The notes under the pieces are model-generated. The model was not told the DNA's origin. It searched no databases and saw nothing but the letters and a program-made list of their open reading frames with translations. Below, piece by piece: positions 36,254-55,499 of a stretch of 55,499 nucleotides of DNA. Location: assembly GCA_019912395.1 (NCBI GenBank), contig JAIOIH010000039.1:1-55499 (forward strand), given 5' to 3'. This stretch comes from Flavobacteriales bacterium (GTDB lineage Bacteria > Bacteroidota > Bacteroidia > Flavobacteriales_F > PHOS-HE28). The translations under genes were made by a program, and so were the position numbers. Within the stretch, counting starts at the first letter, position 1; the number at the start of each line of letters is the position of its first letter.

Positions 36254-36295
36254 GCCGCAAAGATCGGTGCAACCGCTCATCCGGCTCTAACCGCA

Positions 36296-36352
36296 GCTCT
36301 AGCTCGGCCCCGGCCGAGCGGTCCTATCTGGTCGCGCCCCGCGATGCATCCC
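36296..36352. repeat. REP-like double-hairpin element, copy 1
   Basis: Hairpin CTCGGCCCCGGCCGAG (36303-36318), a 13-nt linker, then hairpin TCGCG-CCC-CGCGA (36332-36344). Copy 2 at 38041-38098 has the same order, orientation and linker length. The end of this copy (CGATGCATCCC, 36342-36352) also pairs exactly with GGGATGCATCG at 36378-36388. Confidence 0.8.
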
Positions 36353-37963: not shown

Positions 37964-38040
37964 TTCTCTGCCGAAGCTGTAGCGAAGGTGGAAAATGAAA
38001 TGCCTTTCTCCTTACGTCCCCGTAGGATCACCGCCTCGAA

Positions 38041-38098
38041 GCTATGGCTCGGCCCCGGCCGAGCGGTTCTATTCCGTCGCGCCCCCGCGACACTTCGG
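38041..38098. repeat. REP-like double-hairpin element, copy 2
   Basis: CTCGGCCCCGGCCGAG at 38048-38063 and TCGCG-CCCC-CGCGA at 38077-38090. The loop is one base longer than in copy 1 and the stems are kept. It is preceded by ACGTCCCCGTAGGA (38014-38027), which links it to the repeat at 24030. Confidence 0.8.
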
Positions 38099-39189: not shown

Positions 39190-40689
39190 TCAAAGTTCGA
39201 TATTGATCGCTCTTCCGCTTGTTACGGTCACATCCTTCACGATCGAGAAAGCGGTTTCCTTGGCGCCACCGGGGCGATAGACCACGCGGTAGTTGCCGGG
39301 GAGCAGCTTGAACTGGTTGCGTGCAAGTCGCCGATCCAGGTCCACTACCCAGACCAGTTCGTTGCCGACCGCTTGGAAGATGGCTCCGGGGCCGGGCACA
39401 TTGGCGATCACGTTCAACACGCCGCTCTTCGGGATGCTCACCGGGGTGACGGCGCTTTGGCGGATCACGACGTTCGGGATGGAGAGGCGGGGGAGGGTGA
39501 GCACCTCCAGGTCGTACGTGCCGGTCCGGTAGAGCTGTGAAGTGTTCATGGGCTGGGCGTTCAACGTGGTGCTCTCGCCTTGCTTGCGCACGATGCAGGC
39601 CACCGGGAGCTCCGCCGTAACGGCCCCCTCGATCTTCAGTTCCAAGGTGCCCTGCCCGGCCACCAGGGCCACTACGTTGTGCCGTCCGGCCTCTATCACC
39701 ACGTTCTCCTTCACGCTTGGCGGCACCGTGTGGGCCACGATGCGATAGGTGAAGACCGGGTCGATGCTCAGGGTGTCGGGCACGCCGCGCAGGTTCATGG
39801 TATGCACGAAGTCGTAGCGGTCCTCGCCGGTGCGCTGGTCGTAGAAGGTCACGGGGACATCGGTCTCCGTGGGCTGGCTTCCGTCGGTGAGCAGGAGCAA
39901 TTGGGTGGTGGTGCTGCGCAACGCCTGTTCGATCACCACGCGGAGCACGCGGTCGAAGGTTTCCGGCGTGCCGGCATCGTAGTAGTTGCCCACGCACTTC
40001 AGGCTGAACTTGTTGGCCTCTTCAATGCCGATGCCGATCACAAAGGGCTTCAGGATGATGCCTTTGGCCTGTAGTGCGCGGCTTACCGCGCAAGGGTCCT
40101 CGTCGCACGCCTCGATCCCGTCGGTGATCAGGATGATGACGTTGCGCGACTTGTTGTCGGGGAAATCCCCTGCCGCTTTTTCCAGTGAACGGGCGATCGG
40201 CGTGGTGCCCAAGCACTGCACGGAGTTCATCTTGTCGCGGATGGCCTGGGCATTGTTCGGCCCGAAAGGCACCTCCAGCTTGGTGTCGTCGCAATCCTGC
40301 TTGCCGGGTTCGATCTTCGTTTGGTGCCCATAGACCCGTAGTGCCAGTTCCACGTTCTCCAAGTGCTCCAGGGGAATGAGCGATTCCAGCAGCACCCGGC
40401 GGGCAGCATTGATCCGCGGCTCATTGCCCCAGAATGCGTTCATGCTGTTGCTTCCGTCCATCACAAAGAGGATGCGGGTGTGCTCCTGCGGTGGCGTTGT
40501 GGTGCTTTGGGCGTGGGCTACTGGTGCGGTCAGGACGGCCAGGAATGCCAAGAATGTAAAATGTAGAATGTAAAATGTAGAATGTCCAATGGCGCTTCGC
40601 CAGTTCGGTGCTTTCCCGCTCCAGTATGCGCGGACGATCCAGTCGCGGCAACGCCTGACAACTGAAAACTGACAACTGACAACCGCCAT
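39190..40689 (-). CDS. VWA domain-containing secreted protein with disturbed 5' end
   Basis: 499 residues if it starts at ATG 40689; the open frame reaches 40749. The von Willebrand A domain (about 75-270) has the MIDAS DGSNSM, TTPIARSLEKAA and LITDGIEACDEDP. The C-terminal half is beta-rich and of unknown class. The signal peptide core (LAFLAVLTAPVAHAQ) is preceded by residues encoded by heptamer repeats (STFYILHFTF), and no ATG lies at a normal distance, so the start is uncertain. It sits between the two halves of transketolase. Confidence 0.8.
   Translation of the reverse strand: MAVVSCQFSVVRRCRDWIVRAYWSGKAPNWRSAIGHSTFYILHFTFLAFLAVLTAPVAHAQSTTTPPQEHTRILFVMDGSNSMNAFWGNEPRINAARRVLLESLIPLEHLENVELALRVYGHQTKIEPGKQDCDDTKLEVPFGPNNAQAIRDKMNSVQCLGTTPIARSLEKAAGDFPDNKSRNVIILITDGIEACDEDPCAVSRALQAKGIILKPFVIGIGIEEANKFSLKCVGNYYDAGTPETFDRVLRVVIEQALRSTTTQLLLLTDGSQPTETDVPVTFYDQRTGEDRYDFVHTMNLRGVPDTLSIDPVFTYRIVAHTVPPSVKENVVIEAGRHNVVALVAGQGTLELKIEGAVTAELPVACIVRKQGESTTLNAQPMNTSQLYRTGTYDLEVLTLPRLSIPNVVIRQSAVTPVSIPKSGVLNVIANVPGPGAIFQAVGNELVWVVDLDRRLARNQFKLLPGNYRVVYRPGGAKETAFSIVKDVTVTSGRAINIEL
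40553..40592. repeat. Heptamer array, AATGTAR x5
   Basis: Five units (AATGTAA, AATGTAG, AATGTAA, AATGTAG, AATGTCC) plus a partial one, inside the predicted signal-peptide codons of the VWA gene. The same family is at 47891-47932 and 49666-49707. Confidence 0.9.
40655..40682. repeat. Heptamer array, CTGACAA x4
   Basis: CTGACAA three times with one CTGAAAA, immediately upstream of the possible ATG 40689 of the VWA gene on the minus strand. Confidence 0.9.
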
Positions 40690-40759: not shown

Positions 40760-41650
40760 TCAATAATCCCCCAACGTTTCGGGAAGCTGCTTCAGCGCAT
40801 CGGCCAGTTGAGCGTCGTTGGGCGCGATGCCGTGCCATTCATGGGTACCCATCATGAAGTCCACGCCAGCGCCCATTTCGGTGCGCATCAGGATCATCAC
40901 GGGTTTGCCTTTGCCGGTGCGGCTGATGGCCTCCTCGAAACCGGCCAGCACTGCGGCCATGTCATTGCCCTTCATCTCCAGCACATCCCAACCGAAGGCC
41001 TTCCACTTGGCGTTGAGGTCGCCCAAGGGCATCACATCATCCACATCCCCGTCGATCTGGCGACCGTTCCAGTCCACCGTGGCGATCAGGTTGTCCACCT
41101 TCTTGCCGGGACCGGCGAGCGCAGCCTCCCAGATCTGGCCTTCCTGCAATTCGCCATCGCCGTGCAGCGTGAATACCAACGATGGGTCACCATTGAGCTT
41201 CTTCGCCAAGGCCGCGCCGATGCCCACGCTGAGCCCCTGGCCCAAGGAGCCGCTGGCCATGCGCACGCCGGGCAGTCCTTCGTGCGTGGTGGGATGCCCT
41301 TGCAGGCGTGAATCGATCTTGCGGAAGGTCTTCAGTTCCTCCAAGGGGAAGTAGCCGCTGCGGGCCAAAACACTATAGAACACGGGGCTGATGTGGCCAT
41401 TGCTGAGGAAGAAGAGGTCCTCGCCGATGCCGTCCATGCTGAAGTTCTCCGGGTCGTGGCGCATCACATGGAAGTAGAGCGCGACCAAAAAGTCCGTACA
41501 GCCCAACGAGCCGCCGGGGTGGCCGCTCTGGCAGCCATGCACCATGCGCACGATGTCGCGGCGCACTTGGCCGGCGATGGACTTCAGTTCTTCTACGGAG
41601 GTGCTCTTGGCGGTGCTCCGATGTGTATCGGAGGGGGCAGGTGTGGTCAT
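40760..41650 (-). CDS. Transketolase, N-terminal subunit
   Basis: 296 residues from ATG 41650 (MTTPAPSDTHRSTAKS); the extension upstream is not protein-like. The thiamine-diphosphate-binding domain is seen in GHPGGSLGCTDFLVALYF, SGSLGQGLSVGIGAALAKK and the GDGELQEGQIWEA motif (GDGE, the Mg/ThDP site). Pairs with the C-terminal half at 38103-39056 to form transketolase of the pentose phosphate pathway. In many bacteria the halves are adjacent; here a VWA gene of 1.5 kb lies between them. A weak TACCTTCG box lies about 28 nt upstream. Confidence 0.93.
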   Translation of the reverse strand: MTTPAPSDTHRSTAKSTSVEELKSIAGQVRRDIVRMVHGCQSGHPGGSLGCTDFLVALYFHVMRHDPENFSMDGIGEDLFFLSNGHISPVFYSVLARSGYFPLEELKTFRKIDSRLQGHPTTHEGLPGVRMASGSLGQGLSVGIGAALAKKLNGDPSLVFTLHGDGELQEGQIWEAALAGPGKKVDNLIATVDWNGRQIDGDVDDVMPLGDLNAKWKAFGWDVLEMKGNDMAAVLAGFEEAISRTGKGKPVMILMRTEMGAGVDFMMGTHEWHGIAPNDAQLADALKQLPETLGDY

Positions 41651-42093
41651 GGCGGCAGGGATTCCCGTTGTGATGCGCGAAGGTATCCGATGGGCCTGCG
41701 GACCTTGCCCCGCGTGGAAAACTTTTGACAAGTAGATGGGGGCGATCAGATGATCGGAAAATGAGATGATCAGAAAATTGAATGCCACGCTCAATGGACG
41801 GCGGGTCTCAATGGGTGCCGAATGGAACGCTGATTACGCTGACTGTGCGTCGCCAAAGCACTTCCGTGCATTCGGCAGCCTGACGCGACGGCACGTTCCA
41901 TCGGGAAACCCGAGCGCGTGCTGAGACTTGCAGGAGCCCCACAAGTCGCCCTTCCCACGGTAGGCAGGCCCGGCCTATTCGGTTAAGAACGCACACCTAT
42001 GCTTAGCCGTGAAGTCGTGCAGTAGCGGGGGGAAGTCACATCCAGCTTGTTACTTGACTCCATGCACGCGCTCGGGTTTTTCCCGAGTGCGTT
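41651..42093. other. Long intergenic region with repeats and alternative stems
   Basis: No gene seen. It contains the octamer array at 41744-41783, then overlapping inverted repeats: GCCGAATG (41817-41824) pairs with CATTCGGC (41869-41876), while TGGAACG (41823-41829) pairs with CGTTCCA (41894-41900). The two stems share two bases and compete. The palindromic repeat follows at 42069. Confidence 0.6.
41744..41783. repeat. Octamer array, GATCAGAn family
   Basis: Five 8-base units: GATCAGAT, GATCGGAA, AATGAGAT, GATCAGAA, AATTGAAT. Upstream of the transketolase N-half; same family as 37932-37963. Confidence 0.8.
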
Positions 42094-42212
42094 CTGCCTA
42101 GGCCTCCGGCCCGCCTCAAGTACGTATGGCCAGTTGGGTGCGAAGACGGGCCGGAGGCCCTGGGATCCGATCACTCGGCAAAAAGCCGAGCGATTGCGCG
42201 CGTTGGGAACAC
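42069..42212. repeat. Palindromic dispersed repeat, copy 1
   Basis: A 101-bp core (42094-42194) identical to 43933-44033 in the same orientation. Structure: hairpin CTCGGG-TTTTT-CCCGAG (42071-42087), long stem GGCCTCCGGCCCG (42101-42113) with CGGGCCGGAGGCC (42147-42159), hairpin CTCGGC-AAAAA-GCCGAG (42174-42190), and an outer GC stem to about 42212. The left and right hairpins are mirror images apart from one compensated base pair. The element lies 34 bp from the stop of the T9SS gene. Confidence 0.85.
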
Positions 42213-42245
42213 GCGAGCGAGTGCGGGGGATGTATTGACTTGCGT

Positions 42246-43823
42246 TCATGGCATTTGAGATTTCACCCATCGGGAGGTGGCCATGTTCCCATGTCGGTCC
42301 ACCACACGAACCAGATATAGTCCCGGTTTGAGCGATCGTGTATCCAACAGTTCGCCTTTTTGGGATTGGACAGCGTTCAGAACATCCCGCCCCGAAGCAT
42401 CCAAAATGCGCACGGTCCAAGGTCTGTTCATTGTGGGTTCCTCGATACACAATTCGTCCGTGCCCGGGTTGGGGTACAATTCAAACAACTGCGCGGTCGG
42501 TTCATCAACACCGGCATCATCGGCATCGAGCCTTACCACCCATGCATCCGAACTACCATGGTTCCCGGTCACATCCCCGTTCAATGAACGCGTATACCCG
42601 GCAAGAAGAGTGGTTCCATCCGCACCTGCCCAAAGCGCATTCGCGCGGTCCTCGCTCGTTCCCCCAAGCGCTTTTTGCCATATCAGCGCACCCACGGAAT
42701 CAAGCTTCAGCACCCAGAGATCATCACCGCCGTGCAGTCCTGTAACGTCCCCGCTGTTCGAATTCGAATAGCCTGCGACGATGTATCCGCCATCGCTCGT
42801 CGTTTTCACCGATTTAGCGATTTCCGGACCATATCCCCCGAGGGCTTTTTGCCACTCAATGGATCCCGCCCCGTCCAATTTTACCACCCAAACATCCCAA
42901 CTGCCATGATCTCCGGAAACATCCCCGTCATGGGAATTGGTATATCCTGCTAGAATATATCCTCCATCACCCGTGAGCTCCACCGCATAAGCATTATCGC
43001 TTGAACTTCCACCTAATGCCCTTTGCCATTCGATCTCCCCAACGTTGGAGAGTTTTAAGACCCACATGTCCTCAGCTCCCACCGGTTCCTCGCCTGCATG
43101 ATGGCCGATCACATCTCCATCATGTGATTTTGCCACCCCGGCAACGATGAACCCGCCTTCAAATGTCTCCCTGACGGCTTGCGCGGATTCGGCGATCGAG
43201 CCTCCATAAGCCCTCTGCCAGAGGATAGCCCCGATCTCATTGAGCTTCACTACCCAAGCATCAGGTGGCCCGTGCGAACCATTGACGTCGCCATCATTGG
43301 ACGCCGTTTGACCCGCCAGGATGAATCCCCCATCGGAGACTTGTTGGACCGAGTACCCGCGATCGTACCCGGAGCCGCCCAAGGTGGTTTGCCATTCAAG
43401 GCCGCCAGAGGCGTTTAGTTTCACGAGCCAAACGTCCTGTTCCCCATGGTTGCCGGAGACATCCCCGTTGTTCGAGTCCGTGGTTCCGGCCAGTATGTAT
43501 CCGCCATCCAACGTTGGAGCTATTGCATTCGCTACGTCCGAACCTGTCCCACCCAAGGACCGCTGCCATTCAACGGACCCTGAATTGTCGATCTTGAACA
43601 CCCAGGCATCGGTAAATCCATGATTCCCGGAAACATCACCATCTATCGAAGTGCTGCTCCCTGCAAGGACATATCCTCCATCCGCTGATGCCACCATGGC
43701 ATTAACTTGATCAGAGTACGAGCCGCCATATGCCATTTGCCATTGGATGGAAGGCGCGGACTGCCCGTAGCACGCACAAATGCGCAGCAGTAAGATAGTG
43801 CAGATCAAAATTGGCTTGTTCAT
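42246..43823 (-). CDS. T9SS-sorted protein of seven 58-residue repeats
   Basis: 525 residues. Signal peptide (NKPILICTILLLRICACYGQ). Seven tandem repeats of about 58 residues follow, each with WQ, GG, DGGYIxAG, SxxGDVxGxHG and DxWVxKL (for example EWQRSLGGTGSDVANAI); the fourth has a short insertion. They resemble delta-60/SBBP-type propeller blades. A T9SS domain starts at LYPNPGTDEL. Surface-exposed or secreted, binding role likely. It has a strong promoter, and identical 101-bp repeats lie on both sides. Confidence 0.88.
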   Translation of the reverse strand: MNKPILICTILLLRICACYGQSAPSIQWQMAYGGSYSDQVNAMVASADGGYVLAGSSTSIDGDVSGNHGFTDAWVFKIDNSGSVEWQRSLGGTGSDVANAIAPTLDGGYILAGTTDSNNGDVSGNHGEQDVWLVKLNASGGLEWQTTLGGSGYDRGYSVQQVSDGGFILAGQTASNDGDVNGSHGPPDAWVVKLNEIGAILWQRAYGGSIAESAQAVRETFEGGFIVAGVAKSHDGDVIGHHAGEEPVGAEDMWVLKLSNVGEIEWQRALGGSSSDNAYAVELTGDGGYILAGYTNSHDGDVSGDHGSWDVWVVKLDGAGSIEWQKALGGYGPEIAKSVKTTSDGGYIVAGYSNSNSGDVTGLHGGDDLWVLKLDSVGALIWQKALGGTSEDRANALWAGADGTTLLAGYTRSLNGDVTGNHGSSDAWVVRLDADDAGVDEPTAQLFELYPNPGTDELCIEEPTMNRPWTVRILDASGRDVLNAVQSQKGELLDTRSLKPGLYLVRVVDRHGNMATSRWVKSQMP

Positions 43824-43844
43824 GTGCGTGCCTCCCCGTTAGAT

Positions 43845-43872
43845 CAAAGCTAATCCGACTCAGAGCTTTCAA
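43845..43872 (-). promoter_or_regulatory. Promoter of the 42246-43823 gene
   Basis: Minus strand: TTG at 43872-43870, a 17-nt spacer, then TAGCTTTG at 43852-43845. Exact match to TTG-N17-23-TAnnTTTG; the ATG is about 21 nt downstream. The promoter lies inside the repeat-bracketed segment, so the module carries its own promoter. Confidence 0.65.
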
Positions 43873-43886
43873 CAACTTCTATCCCG

Positions 43887-44054
43887 GCGCTCCGGTATTT
43901 TCCCGAGCCTGCATGCCGTAAGGATGTGCCTCCTGCCTAGGCCTCCGGCCCGCCTCAAGTACGTATGGCCAGTTGGGTGCGAAGACGGGCCGGAGGCCCT
44001 GGGATCCGATCACTCGGCAAAAAGCCGAGCGATCGAGCGTGTTGGGGGCACGCG
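43887..44054. repeat. Palindromic dispersed repeat, copy 2
   Basis: Core 43933-44033, identical to copy 1 over 101 bp. The left hairpin is eroded (a CTCCGG/CCCGAG pair near 43890-43907), the central stem and CTCGGC-AAAAA-GCCGAG are intact, and the outer stem is CGTG/CACG around TTGGGGG (44038-44052). It lies 20 bp from the stop of the small membrane gene. Confidence 0.85.
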
Positions 44055-44074
44055 AGCCTACTTCAGAAATTGGA

Positions 44075-44272
44075 TCATCTTTCCAGAAAATCCCGAAATC
44101 CGGGATGGCGGAGCGCCTTCACCAGGAGTATGATGCCACCGAGAAATAGAGGGATATAGGTCAAGAGGAAAAGTGCGCCGGAAAATGGCCAGTGCTGGAA
44201 TTTGAAGATCACCGAGACCAGCGTGAAGCACAGGCCGATCGCTACGAGGATCAAACCATGTCGCGCTTTCAT
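44075..44272 (-). CDS. Small membrane protein, two spans
   Basis: 65 residues from ATG 44272, overlapping the VOC stop as ATGA. Two hydrophobic segments (GLILVAIGLCFTLVSVIF and ALFLLTYIPLFLGGIILLV) separated by KFQHWPFS, a motif seen in GldL-like and related small Bacteroidota membrane proteins. No further function can be assigned. The longer frame to 44581 is a shadow of the VOC gene. Confidence 0.7.
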   Translation of the reverse strand: MKARHGLILVAIGLCFTLVSVIFKFQHWPFSGALFLLTYIPLFLGGIILLVKALRHPGFRDFLER

Positions 44273-44688
44273 CCCTTCCGGAACAAACTCTCCGGATCCT
44301 CGAAAGCCTTGAACTCTATGGCGTGGCCGTCCGGGTCCTCGATGAAGAAGCTGCGCTGCTCGCCCACTTCGCCCTTCATCACCACTTGGGGCTCGATGAA
44401 GAAGCGCACGCCGAGCTTTTTGCACTTGTCGCGCATCTTCCGCCAGTCGGCGAGTTCCAGCACGATGCCCCAGTGGTTGCTGGGCACATGGCTGTGCGGG
44501 TTGTAGGTGTTGGCGGTCTTCACCACCATGGGCACTTGCTGGATGGTGAGCTGGTGCCCGAAGAAGTCGTAGTCCACCCAATGGTCGGAGCTGCGACCCT
44601 CGGTGCAGCCCAACAGCCCTCCGTAGAAGGCCTTCATGCGCTTGAGGTCCGTGGTGGCAAAGGCGAGGTGGAAGCGACCGTTGAGCAT
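44269..44688 (-). CDS. VOC family (glyoxalase/bleomycin-resistance fold) protein
   Basis: 139 residues. Two beta-alpha-beta-beta-beta halves: FHLAFATTDLKRMKAFYGG with a metal-ligand-type His at residue 7, HSHVPSNHWGIVLELADW in the middle, and FFIEDPDGHAIEFKAF at the end with the typical DPDGHxIE. Probably a small-molecule lyase, isomerase or dioxygenase-like enzyme; the substrate is not readable from sequence. Coupled to a tiny membrane protein. Confidence 0.87.
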   Translation of the reverse strand: MLNGRFHLAFATTDLKRMKAFYGGLLGCTEGRSSDHWVDYDFFGHQLTIQQVPMVVKTANTYNPHSHVPSNHWGIVLELADWRKMRDKCKKLGVRFFIEPQVVMKGEVGEQRSFFIEDPDGHAIEFKAFEDPESLFRKG

Positions 44689-47776: not shown

Positions 47777-47982
47777 GGTGCTTGTGACCTTGGTGGGGAG
47801 CAGTGGCTGGTGACTTGTGACCGGAGGCTGCTTGATGATCAGCGCTGGTCCGGTTGGCTCGCGCATTCTACTGTGGCTTGGTGTCGAGGAAATGTAAAAT
47901 GTAGAATGTAGAATGTAGAATGTGGAATGCTGGCTTCGACTAGTCCGTCGCGGCCATCCGATCACTGATCACCATGCACCGA
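47777..47982. other. Convergent gap with repeats
   Basis: 206 bp between cls and speA. Holds the AATGTAR array (47891-47932), GTCACMA-like heptamers on the minus strand near 47800-47823, and GATCAC units near 47959-47986. No gene seen. Confidence 0.6.
47891..47932. repeat. Heptamer array, AATGTAR x6
   Basis: Six units: AATGTAA, AATGTAG three times, AATGTGG, AATGCTG. Same unit as 40553-40592 and 49666-49707, all in plus orientation. Confidence 0.9.
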
Positions 47983-49380: not shown

Positions 49381-49826
49381 GGAACGGCGCGGAGGGTTTT
49401 TGGCGATGCAGGGTGAACGGGTACGGCGCAAGGGACTTCCCCGAAGCTCTTGCCCGGAGGGAAGTGGAGGTCCGCCCCGGTGGTGAAAAGCGCTTGGATG
49501 GCGCAGCAAGGACCGGGGAGAAGGGGCGGCAACATCAGCGGAAGGGAGGCACCGTGGCGGCACGTCGCTGCACCTTCGCGGCGGAAGGATGCAGGACGAT
49601 GGAGGGGTATGTGGGTACGCTGGACATGCCGGGACGGTGCAAAGTAAAAGCCTCGGCCCGTTGGGAATGTAAAATGCGGAATGAAAAATGTAAAATGTGG
49701 AATGGCCCCCTGCTGCTGCATTGCCCTCCGGCGCGTTCGCCGCTCCGTGCCCGCCGACTGCGTCACCCCACCGAGCTGATCCGCGTAGATCATAACGATC
49801 AGCGTTATCAGCGTTCCATCCAACGA
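49381..49826. other. 446-bp gap upstream of speA
   Basis: No gene seen. It contains the AATGTAR array (49666-49707), a TACTTTG box on the minus strand near 49656-49650 that is one base short of TAnnTTTG, and GATCA-type units near 49788-49802. If that box is the promoter, speA has a leader of about 260 nt, GC-rich and able to fold, but I see no known riboswitch. Confidence 0.5.
49666..49707. repeat. Heptamer array, AATGnnn x6
   Basis: AATGTAA, AATGCGG, AATGAAA, AATGTAA, AATGTGG, AATGGCC: six in-register 7-base units with a constant AATG and variable last three bases. Confidence 0.9.
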
Positions 49827-55268: not shown

Positions 55269-55316
55269 GGGAGAGCGCTCGGAACGACAGGATTTTTGAG
55301 CGCGGTCTATATCCAG

Positions 55317-55499
55317 TTGTCATGTCGAGCGCAGTTGTGGTGTGTCACATCGAGTGCTACAGTGTTGTCATGTCGAGCGCAGTTGTGGTGTGTCACATCG
55401 AGTGCTACAGTGTTGTCATGTCGAGCGCCAGTTGTCGTGTGTCATGTCGAGCACCAGTTGTCGTGTGTCATGTCGAGCACCAGTTGTCGTGTGTCATGT
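55317..55499. repeat. Tandem repeat array running off the window end
   Basis: Two identical 48-bp units (55317-55364 and 55365-55412), then three 26-bp units (55414-55439, 55440-55465, 55466-55491) and a partial unit. All carry TGTCATGTCGAGC or a diverged form; the 48-mer is two diverged 24-mers. The first 26-mer differs from the next two by one base. No spacers, so not CRISPR. Confidence 0.9.

Follow-up and report, generated by a model that had tools for sequence, protein, structure and literature searches.

We consider it likely that the two palindromic repeats enclosing a gene for a T9SS-type secreted protein are copies of a REPIN/BIME-type element, and that the pair came about by local duplication or conversion beside this lineage-specific gene, with no cassette machinery dedicated to it. 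The repeats lie in genome G000, an assembly of 4.13 Mb and 87 contigs, on contig C8, and the whole stretch of DNA that we analysed, 55,499 nt of that contig, is referred to as the window. The region around the pair contains the following features:

40760 to 41650, minus strand: transketolase N-terminal subunit, the conserved left neighbour (locus comparison, Pfam)
41901 to 41921, minus strand: possible element-arm remnant left of copy 1, uncertain (BLAST E 0.32, 91% over 21 nt)
42065 to 42221, plus strand: element copy 1, a REPIN-like palindromic doublet (covariance model R1, 145.5 bits; alignment A1; fold)
42094 to 42194, plus strand: copy 1 core, 101 nt, identical to the copy 2 core (sequence, repeat finder, alignment)
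42246 to 43823, minus strand: T9SS-type secreted protein, 525 aa, with a Por_Secre_tail and seven SBBP/delta-60-like repeats (ORF list; PF18962, TIGR04183)
43845 to 43872, minus strand: promoter-like TTG-N17-TAGCTTTG upstream of the T9SS gene (read from the sequence; a single, weak motif match)
43884 to 44060, plus strand: element copy 2, oriented as copy 1, its left outer hairpin degenerate (R1, 91.5 bits; alignment of copy 1 with copy 2)
43933 to 44033, plus strand: copy 2 core, 101 nt (sequence, repeat finder, alignment)
44075 to 44272, minus strand: small hydrophobic ORF on the glyoxalase side of copy 2 (ORF list; no Pfam match)
44269 to 44688, minus strand: glyoxalase-family protein, the conserved right neighbour (locus comparison; family from reading of the translation and Glyoxalase matches)

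A preliminary description of the window had reported direct palindromic repeats that are identical over 101 bp and diverge outside this core, and both statements hold. The identity of 42094-42194 and 43933-44033 was seen in the sequence, in a pairwise alignment and with a repeat finder, which extended the pair to 132 nt at 95% (42087-42218 and 43926-44057). Over the 156 columns of the alignment between copy 1 and copy 2, all 11 mismatches fell beyond the 101-nt run and none within it, a run for which random placement of 11 mismatches gives p = 7.5e-5; relative to copy 1, the left outer hairpin of copy 2 also carries a 19-nt insertion. Copy 1 is laid out as an outer hairpin, a half-palindrome, a variable loop, a second half-palindrome and a second outer hairpin, and folding as DNA yielded z-scores of -5.1 for copy 1 and -2.8 for copy 2. 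The compensated base pair that had been pointed out in the end hairpins is real: it is a loop-closing pair that recurs across the element family, with both sides changed and pairing kept in 4 of 18 sequences at columns 13-19 of alignment A1 and in 5 of 18 at columns 139-146.

BLAST of copy 1 revealed the element to be a ~160-nt palindromic doublet in which each half aligns with the reverse complement of the other, with full or half copies at several further places in G000. In an alignment of 18 sequences, the consensus comprised 34 base pairs, 5 of which were changed on both sides in some sequence. A covariance model built from these sequences (R1, for which copy 1 was one of the 18) gave, at E 0.01, at least 24 matches at at least 13 places in G000, at least 6 matches in G002 and at least 49 in G022, the most in any one genome, and genus-wide it matched at E 0.001 in at least 16 of 45 genomes; these numbers are rough lower bounds, in which both strands of a palindrome are often counted (as for many of the 49) and which come from scoring 66 or 150 of the ~300-1300 candidates per genome. 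By a crude caller, 36 of 49 scored elements overlapped no coding-like ORF. An exact degenerate pattern, searched in public genome contigs, returned 24 stretches, of which 23 were titled as Flavobacteriales or Bacteroidetes MAGs, the remaining one lying on a 5.3-kb contig titled Acidobacteria. No GTAG/GTGG guide was conserved 5′ of the hairpin among the 18 aligned sequences, where the best column reached 8 of 18 and lay in the variable loop.

The family is linked to a transposase gene that lies outside the window. The earlier remark that the window holds no integrase or transposase agrees with our Pfam results, where neither was among the 25 families listed of the 78 obtained for 51 of the 52 window ORFs; RAYT genes are present elsewhere in G000. 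Y1 transposase domains occurred in 47 of the 58 genomes searched, so that presence alone says little and adjacency is the informative observation. At 5 of 41 fetched Y1-domain loci (G006:C19, G019:C30, G031:C279, G022:C34 and G000:C48), full-length or clustered elements lay beside a RAYT, and at another 3 there were element matches of only ~46 nt. In a RAYT tree, rooted by midpoint only, a supported branch (98/95) had the five element-linked RAYTs all to one side, and another (100/100) the three with partial matches.

The G019 and G022 RAYTs scored over the NCBIfam cut-off for NF047646, REP-associated tyrosine transposase, while the RAYT at the G000 locus is a remnant that reached 63.4 against a cut-off of 80. 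This remnant aligns to RAYT residues 1-119 of 178, has one element copy beside it, and continues in an open frame into a neighbouring T9SS-type gene (a 1366-aa ORF). The G022 RAYT has an intact frame of 178 aa. In G006 the match is confined to residues 38-178, and contig ends interrupt the gene in G031; only the G019 and G022 RAYTs were therefore seen intact. G000 has two further RAYTs with open frames, related at 61% and 67%, and neither has such an element beside it; some genomes (G021, G028) carry elements with no close RAYT. The HUH motif reads NHVH in four of the five RAYTs and NHAH in G022, where the subclass 2.6 motif is NH[LIV]H; the three copies that extend to the further motifs have WK or WI and YIHMNP, not WQ and YIH[QN]NP; in the related clade, whose element matches are partial, the motifs are WQ and YIHNNP. 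A sequence search of the G022 RAYT against the PDB returned no match at E 0.01. Judged by sequence, the element-linked clade represents the cognate RAYT (a Y1 HUH transposase), known from relatives and truncated in G000. Because the elements are dispersed and lie directly beside this one RAYT clade, we assign them to the REPIN/BIME type, of an atypical Bacteroidetes kind.

We compared the locus in relatives. Within the genus, the glyoxalase was found in 36 of 45 genomes and the transketolase in 43 of 45, and ten loci were chosen in which the two lie close together. The G022 locus has one element and no T9SS gene, its place being taken by a GDSL lipase gene (a gene present in 1 of 45 genomes), whereas G002, G028 and G017 have neither repeat nor gene and only ~140-350 bp between the conserved genes. 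The remaining loci, read from translations, carry an MgtC-like gene plus others (G031), an MgtC-like gene (G019), small repeat proteins (G020, G018), a pyrophosphatase-like gene (G032) and a MarR-like gene (G004). As different relatives hold different genes here, the interval between transketolase and glyoxalase is a variable spot. The preliminary description had named, as a finding that would speak against a cassette, a core occurring only beside this gene family, as a fixed pair with no empty or swapped loci; what we observed differed from this, with a dispersed family that has no tie to T9SS genes, empty loci in G002, G028 and G017 and, in G022, a single copy beside another gene.

The comparison with G022 also shows how much of the interval has changed. 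Between ~41733 and 44271, nothing aligned between G000 and G022 save the element itself, and since non-aligning sequence lies outside both repeats, the difference exceeds the gene plus one element and is not a clean repeat-bounded insertion. Beside the glyoxalase gene, where G000 has the small hydrophobic ORF, G022 has only ~100 bp. Copy 1 and the G022 element are 88% identical. At its right end, the G022 element has CGCGAGCCT in common with copy 2, a state absent from the other aligned family members, while at one site, and in the GTGCGGG after it, the G022 element follows copy 1; its left end resembles copy 1 and the family consensus. Since the locus does not align outside the elements, orthology of the single G022 copy is argued from its position and a few sites, and alignments of the G022 flanks with those of either copy were not significant (five tests, p 0.07-0.94). 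On the far (left) side of the G022 element (G022:C33, L170), we observed a degenerate ~60-nt copy of the glyoxalase 3′ end, as if the element lay within a duplication. That copy is real, its score being reached in 0 of 500 shuffles; a search for its counterpart in the window gave a best p of 0.025 over six tests, which we did not count.

Neighbouring members of the family are in general closely alike. Near pairs (within 5 kb) numbered 8 at 6 loci, all direct, with identities of 0.85-0.99 and longest identical runs of 23-124 nt, while 54 distant pairs in the same genomes had a mean identity of 0.82, a maximum of 0.906 and longest runs of at most 33 nt. These statistics cover 35 elements of at least 77 bits, from 57 of 116 rows of model matches (one strand per element was kept and some weak rows were dropped), and the near pairs are few and non-independent. 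As near pairs are more alike than distant ones, local duplication or conversion seems to be usual in this family; the window pair looks like one such case, with an unusually long spacer that holds a gene. Its identical core and diverged ends fit local duplication or gene conversion. Homogenisation of the core probably postdates the split of G000 and G022, because copy 1 is only 88% identical to the G022 element.

Element places, in turn, can be stable. Three G000 sites (C52, C73 and C44) correspond by alignment to an element-bearing position in G022, as a fourth (C64) probably does, and the C73 locus aligns also to G031:C128 and G006:C246, both with model matches; the G000 sites C48, C6 and C59 were not placed in G022. 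Since the compared G022 loci were fetched for holding elements, this speaks for persistence at those sites and not for its rate. Separately, we noticed that G004:C1 (L289) and G006:C354 (L295) have several kb in common at 93-97% identity, perhaps through recent transfer; their elements score alike and are probably the pair behind a 159-nt identical run between genomes.

The course of events that we envisage is as follows. A RAYT acting on single-stranded hairpins would have spread the copies long ago, and these would since have persisted by descent. One resident copy beside the glyoxalase gene would be ancestral. The lineage of G000 would then have gained, or homogenised, a second direct copy nearby by local duplication or RecA-type gene conversion, a step after which the copies would be identical in the core but not at the ends. 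The T9SS gene would be a lineage-specific occupant of a spot whose gene content varies among relatives, and it could be lost if the two direct copies recombined.

The enclosed gene itself is as had been described: exactly one between the repeats, encoding a T9SS protein with seven repeats. It is the only long coding-like ORF there, all others listed overlapping 42246-43823; its C-terminal sorting domain was over the cut-off for both PF18962 and TIGR04183, and seven GDVxGxHG-type repeats are readable in the translation. The reported promoter motif TTG-N17-TAGCTTTG, which we take to be the Bacteroidetes promoter consensus, is present on the minus strand (43872-43845), where one match is weak evidence. 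The GC3 of the gene is 0.56, compared with 0.80-0.88 in three neighbours and 0.66-0.68 in two other long T9SS-type reading frames of G000. By E-value, its best relative in the genus was 49% identical (45 genomes, in each of which 33 of up to 189 candidates were scored), and the best class-wide was 46% identical with E 1e-110, the highest identity listed being 49% (395 genomes, 3 candidates per genome scored); no donor was found among the scored candidates of these 45 genus and 395 class genomes.

These data bear on whether the gene and one element move together as a REPIN-bounded cassette, driven either by a RAYT that uses two elements as substrates or by homologous recombination of elements at different loci. 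A single-copy relative lacking the T9SS gene (G022), the low GC3 of that gene and a mosaic core of the kind that crossover with conversion would leave all agree with such a unit, as do other near-identical direct pairs, several of them REPIN-like, that enclose genes at G000:C68, G004:C2, G006:C43, G019:C54, G032:C221 and G027:C3. Against it, G022 differs beyond both elements too, the search for a close T9SS homologue went no higher than 49% among the scored candidates by E-value, the methyltransferase locus G000:C68 has no clean empty site in G022, and T9SS genes are not enriched near elements (7 of 118 neighbours, the window gene included, versus 5 of 118 controls; no association). We thus judge this reading unlikely, although mobilisation by a RAYT is a possible route. 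For the mobile or exchangeable cassette first proposed, there are the empty and swapped states and the dispersed repeat family, but we saw no sign of the gene travelling as a unit delimited by the repeats; the proposal is only partly supported because the flanks outside the repeats differ from G022, the repeats are REPIN-like, and three element sites have stayed put.

A broader form of the same idea is that, in this Flavobacteriales genus, direct REPIN pairs serve as exchange sites around accessory modules of one or two genes, such as secreted proteins, toxin-antitoxin genes, toxin-like tips or a DNA methyltransferase locus, and that RAYT elements would thereby form a cassette system that needs no integrase. 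In a self-comparison of 92 fetched sequences, some overlapping, we counted 66 direct and 0 inverted repeat pairs (70-500 nt, at least 85% identity, within 6 kb, all repeat kinds), an asymmetry that strand-specific insertion, as well as local duplication, could produce. At G000:C68 (L317, 5503-5951 and 8736-9083), direct REPIN-like repeats of 91-97% identity lie around a DNA methyltransferase gene and a 438-aa ORF, perhaps a restriction-modification pair. At G006:C43 (L296, 3334-3549 and 5483-5698), a direct 216-nt REPIN-like repeat, 98% identical, brackets a piece that has no Pfam match and was read as Rhs C-terminus-like, together with a Peptidase_M91 ORF and one more small ORF. Direct pairs likewise enclose RelE and ORF6N genes at G004:C2, ParE-type genes at G032:C221 and G019:C54 (where the repeats are another sequence), and an unclassified 526-aa ORF at G027:C3. 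As these loci were fetched because they bear elements and have no genome-wide null, they constitute a lead.

Toxin genes made up 8 of 118 neighbours of elements (5 ParE and 3 PIN; L288, L298, L303, L208 and L296), and among the 25 families listed of 104 for the 118 controls there were none, which for 0, 1 or 2 hidden control members corresponds to Fisher p values of 0.003, 0.018 or 0.051. The neighbours were 118 of 137 ORFs, after removal of some very long ones and of duplicates among orthologous neighbours; the controls were 118 of 137 ORFs sampled from 187, excluding the window's own and some others. That type II toxin genes are commoner beside elements than among control genes is suggestive only, and we regard a general role as exchange sites as doubtful. 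Among the papers listed in our literature searches, none was on REPINs that bracket accessory genes.

Alternatively, the main role of the element could be that of an RNA or DNA structure at the 3′ ends of genes, in mRNA stabilisation or termination, with the pair marking the 3′ sides of two unidirectional genes. Both copies do sit between same-strand genes, copy 1 ~25-50 nt past the T9SS stop codon, the stems are conserved with compensatory changes, and in excerpts of PMC3733652 such roles are hypothesised for REPs. This account would leave the dispersal, the RAYT linkage and the identical cores unexplained, and the Rfam scan of the window found no family at the gathering threshold; we hold it to be improbable.

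It is very improbable that the assembly fused unrelated pieces at a repeat: G000 is a draft of 87 contigs and misjoins do occur at repeats, but the locus is syntenic with G022 on both sides, and the copies differ at both ends, so that reads longer than ~130 nt would separate them. Integron gene cassettes consist of a single promoter-bearing gene between same-orientation palindromes, a layout like the one seen here, and a cassette-only array would need no integrase. The consensus of the attC core site is GTTRRRY, and no such core was seen at the palindrome ends, which read GTTGGGA in copy 1 and GTTGGGG in copy 2; with palindromes that adjoin RAYTs and no integrase among the Pfam families listed for the window, this is the least probable explanation.

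The window contains further repeats. A second palindrome, CTCGGCCCCGGCCGAG, occurs twice within 2 kb (36292-36340 and 38037-38085; 86% alike over 49 nt), and its exact 20-nt core was found in 0 of 322 fetched loci. Runs of a 7-nt unit (AATGTAA/AATGTAG type) lie at 40539-40605, 47877-47943 and 49666-49718. Tandem repeats of 48 nt and 26 nt (55316-55499) extend to the contig end and may be the reason why the contig stops there.

Returning to the reading that we favour, REPIN/BIME copies with local duplication or conversion, the available sections of PMC3116915 and PMC6006769 describe a close counterpart, built of paired inverted REP-like halves that fold into one long hairpin, dispersed and clustered by a cognate RAYT, with neighbouring copies near-identical and in tandem order. 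Ordered REPIN clusters are tandem near-identical copies and adjoin RAYTs, according to parts of Bertels and Rainey 2011 (PMC3116915), who also suggest a gain for REPINs that take up host-useful DNA. In comparison with what those excerpts describe, the element here is longer (~160 nt with its outer hairpins), lacks a conserved GTAG/GTGG guide at the stem foot, and was counted in fewer copies, our counts being lower bounds. TIRtrons/TIRYT, in the portions of PMC3733652 that concern them, are similar in having a RAYT-like gene flanked by long non-GTAG repeats that are also found elsewhere, but those are terminal inverted repeats, whereas ours are complete palindromic doublets in direct order.

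For the RAYTs, the closest named group is TnpAREP subclass 2.6, equivalent to RAYT group 5, which Quentin et al. 2018 (PMC6006769), in the sections at hand, describe as mostly from Bacteroidetes, its genes lying between atypical secondary structures that recur at other places in the genome. We name it as closest and not as proven membership, because length (~178 aa) and taxon fit and the motifs fit in part: a HUH motif is present, as HAH in G022, but WK/WI and YIHMNP stand in place of the WQ and YIH[QN]NP given in that source. Our data hence provide a defined REPIN family with a co-inherited RAYT clade in the Bacteroidetes, where gene-flanking structures are, in those sections of PMC6006769, described only as atypical, and the transketolase-glyoxalase locus, with its empty, swapped and filled states, offers a direct test bed for how REPINs shape gene content.
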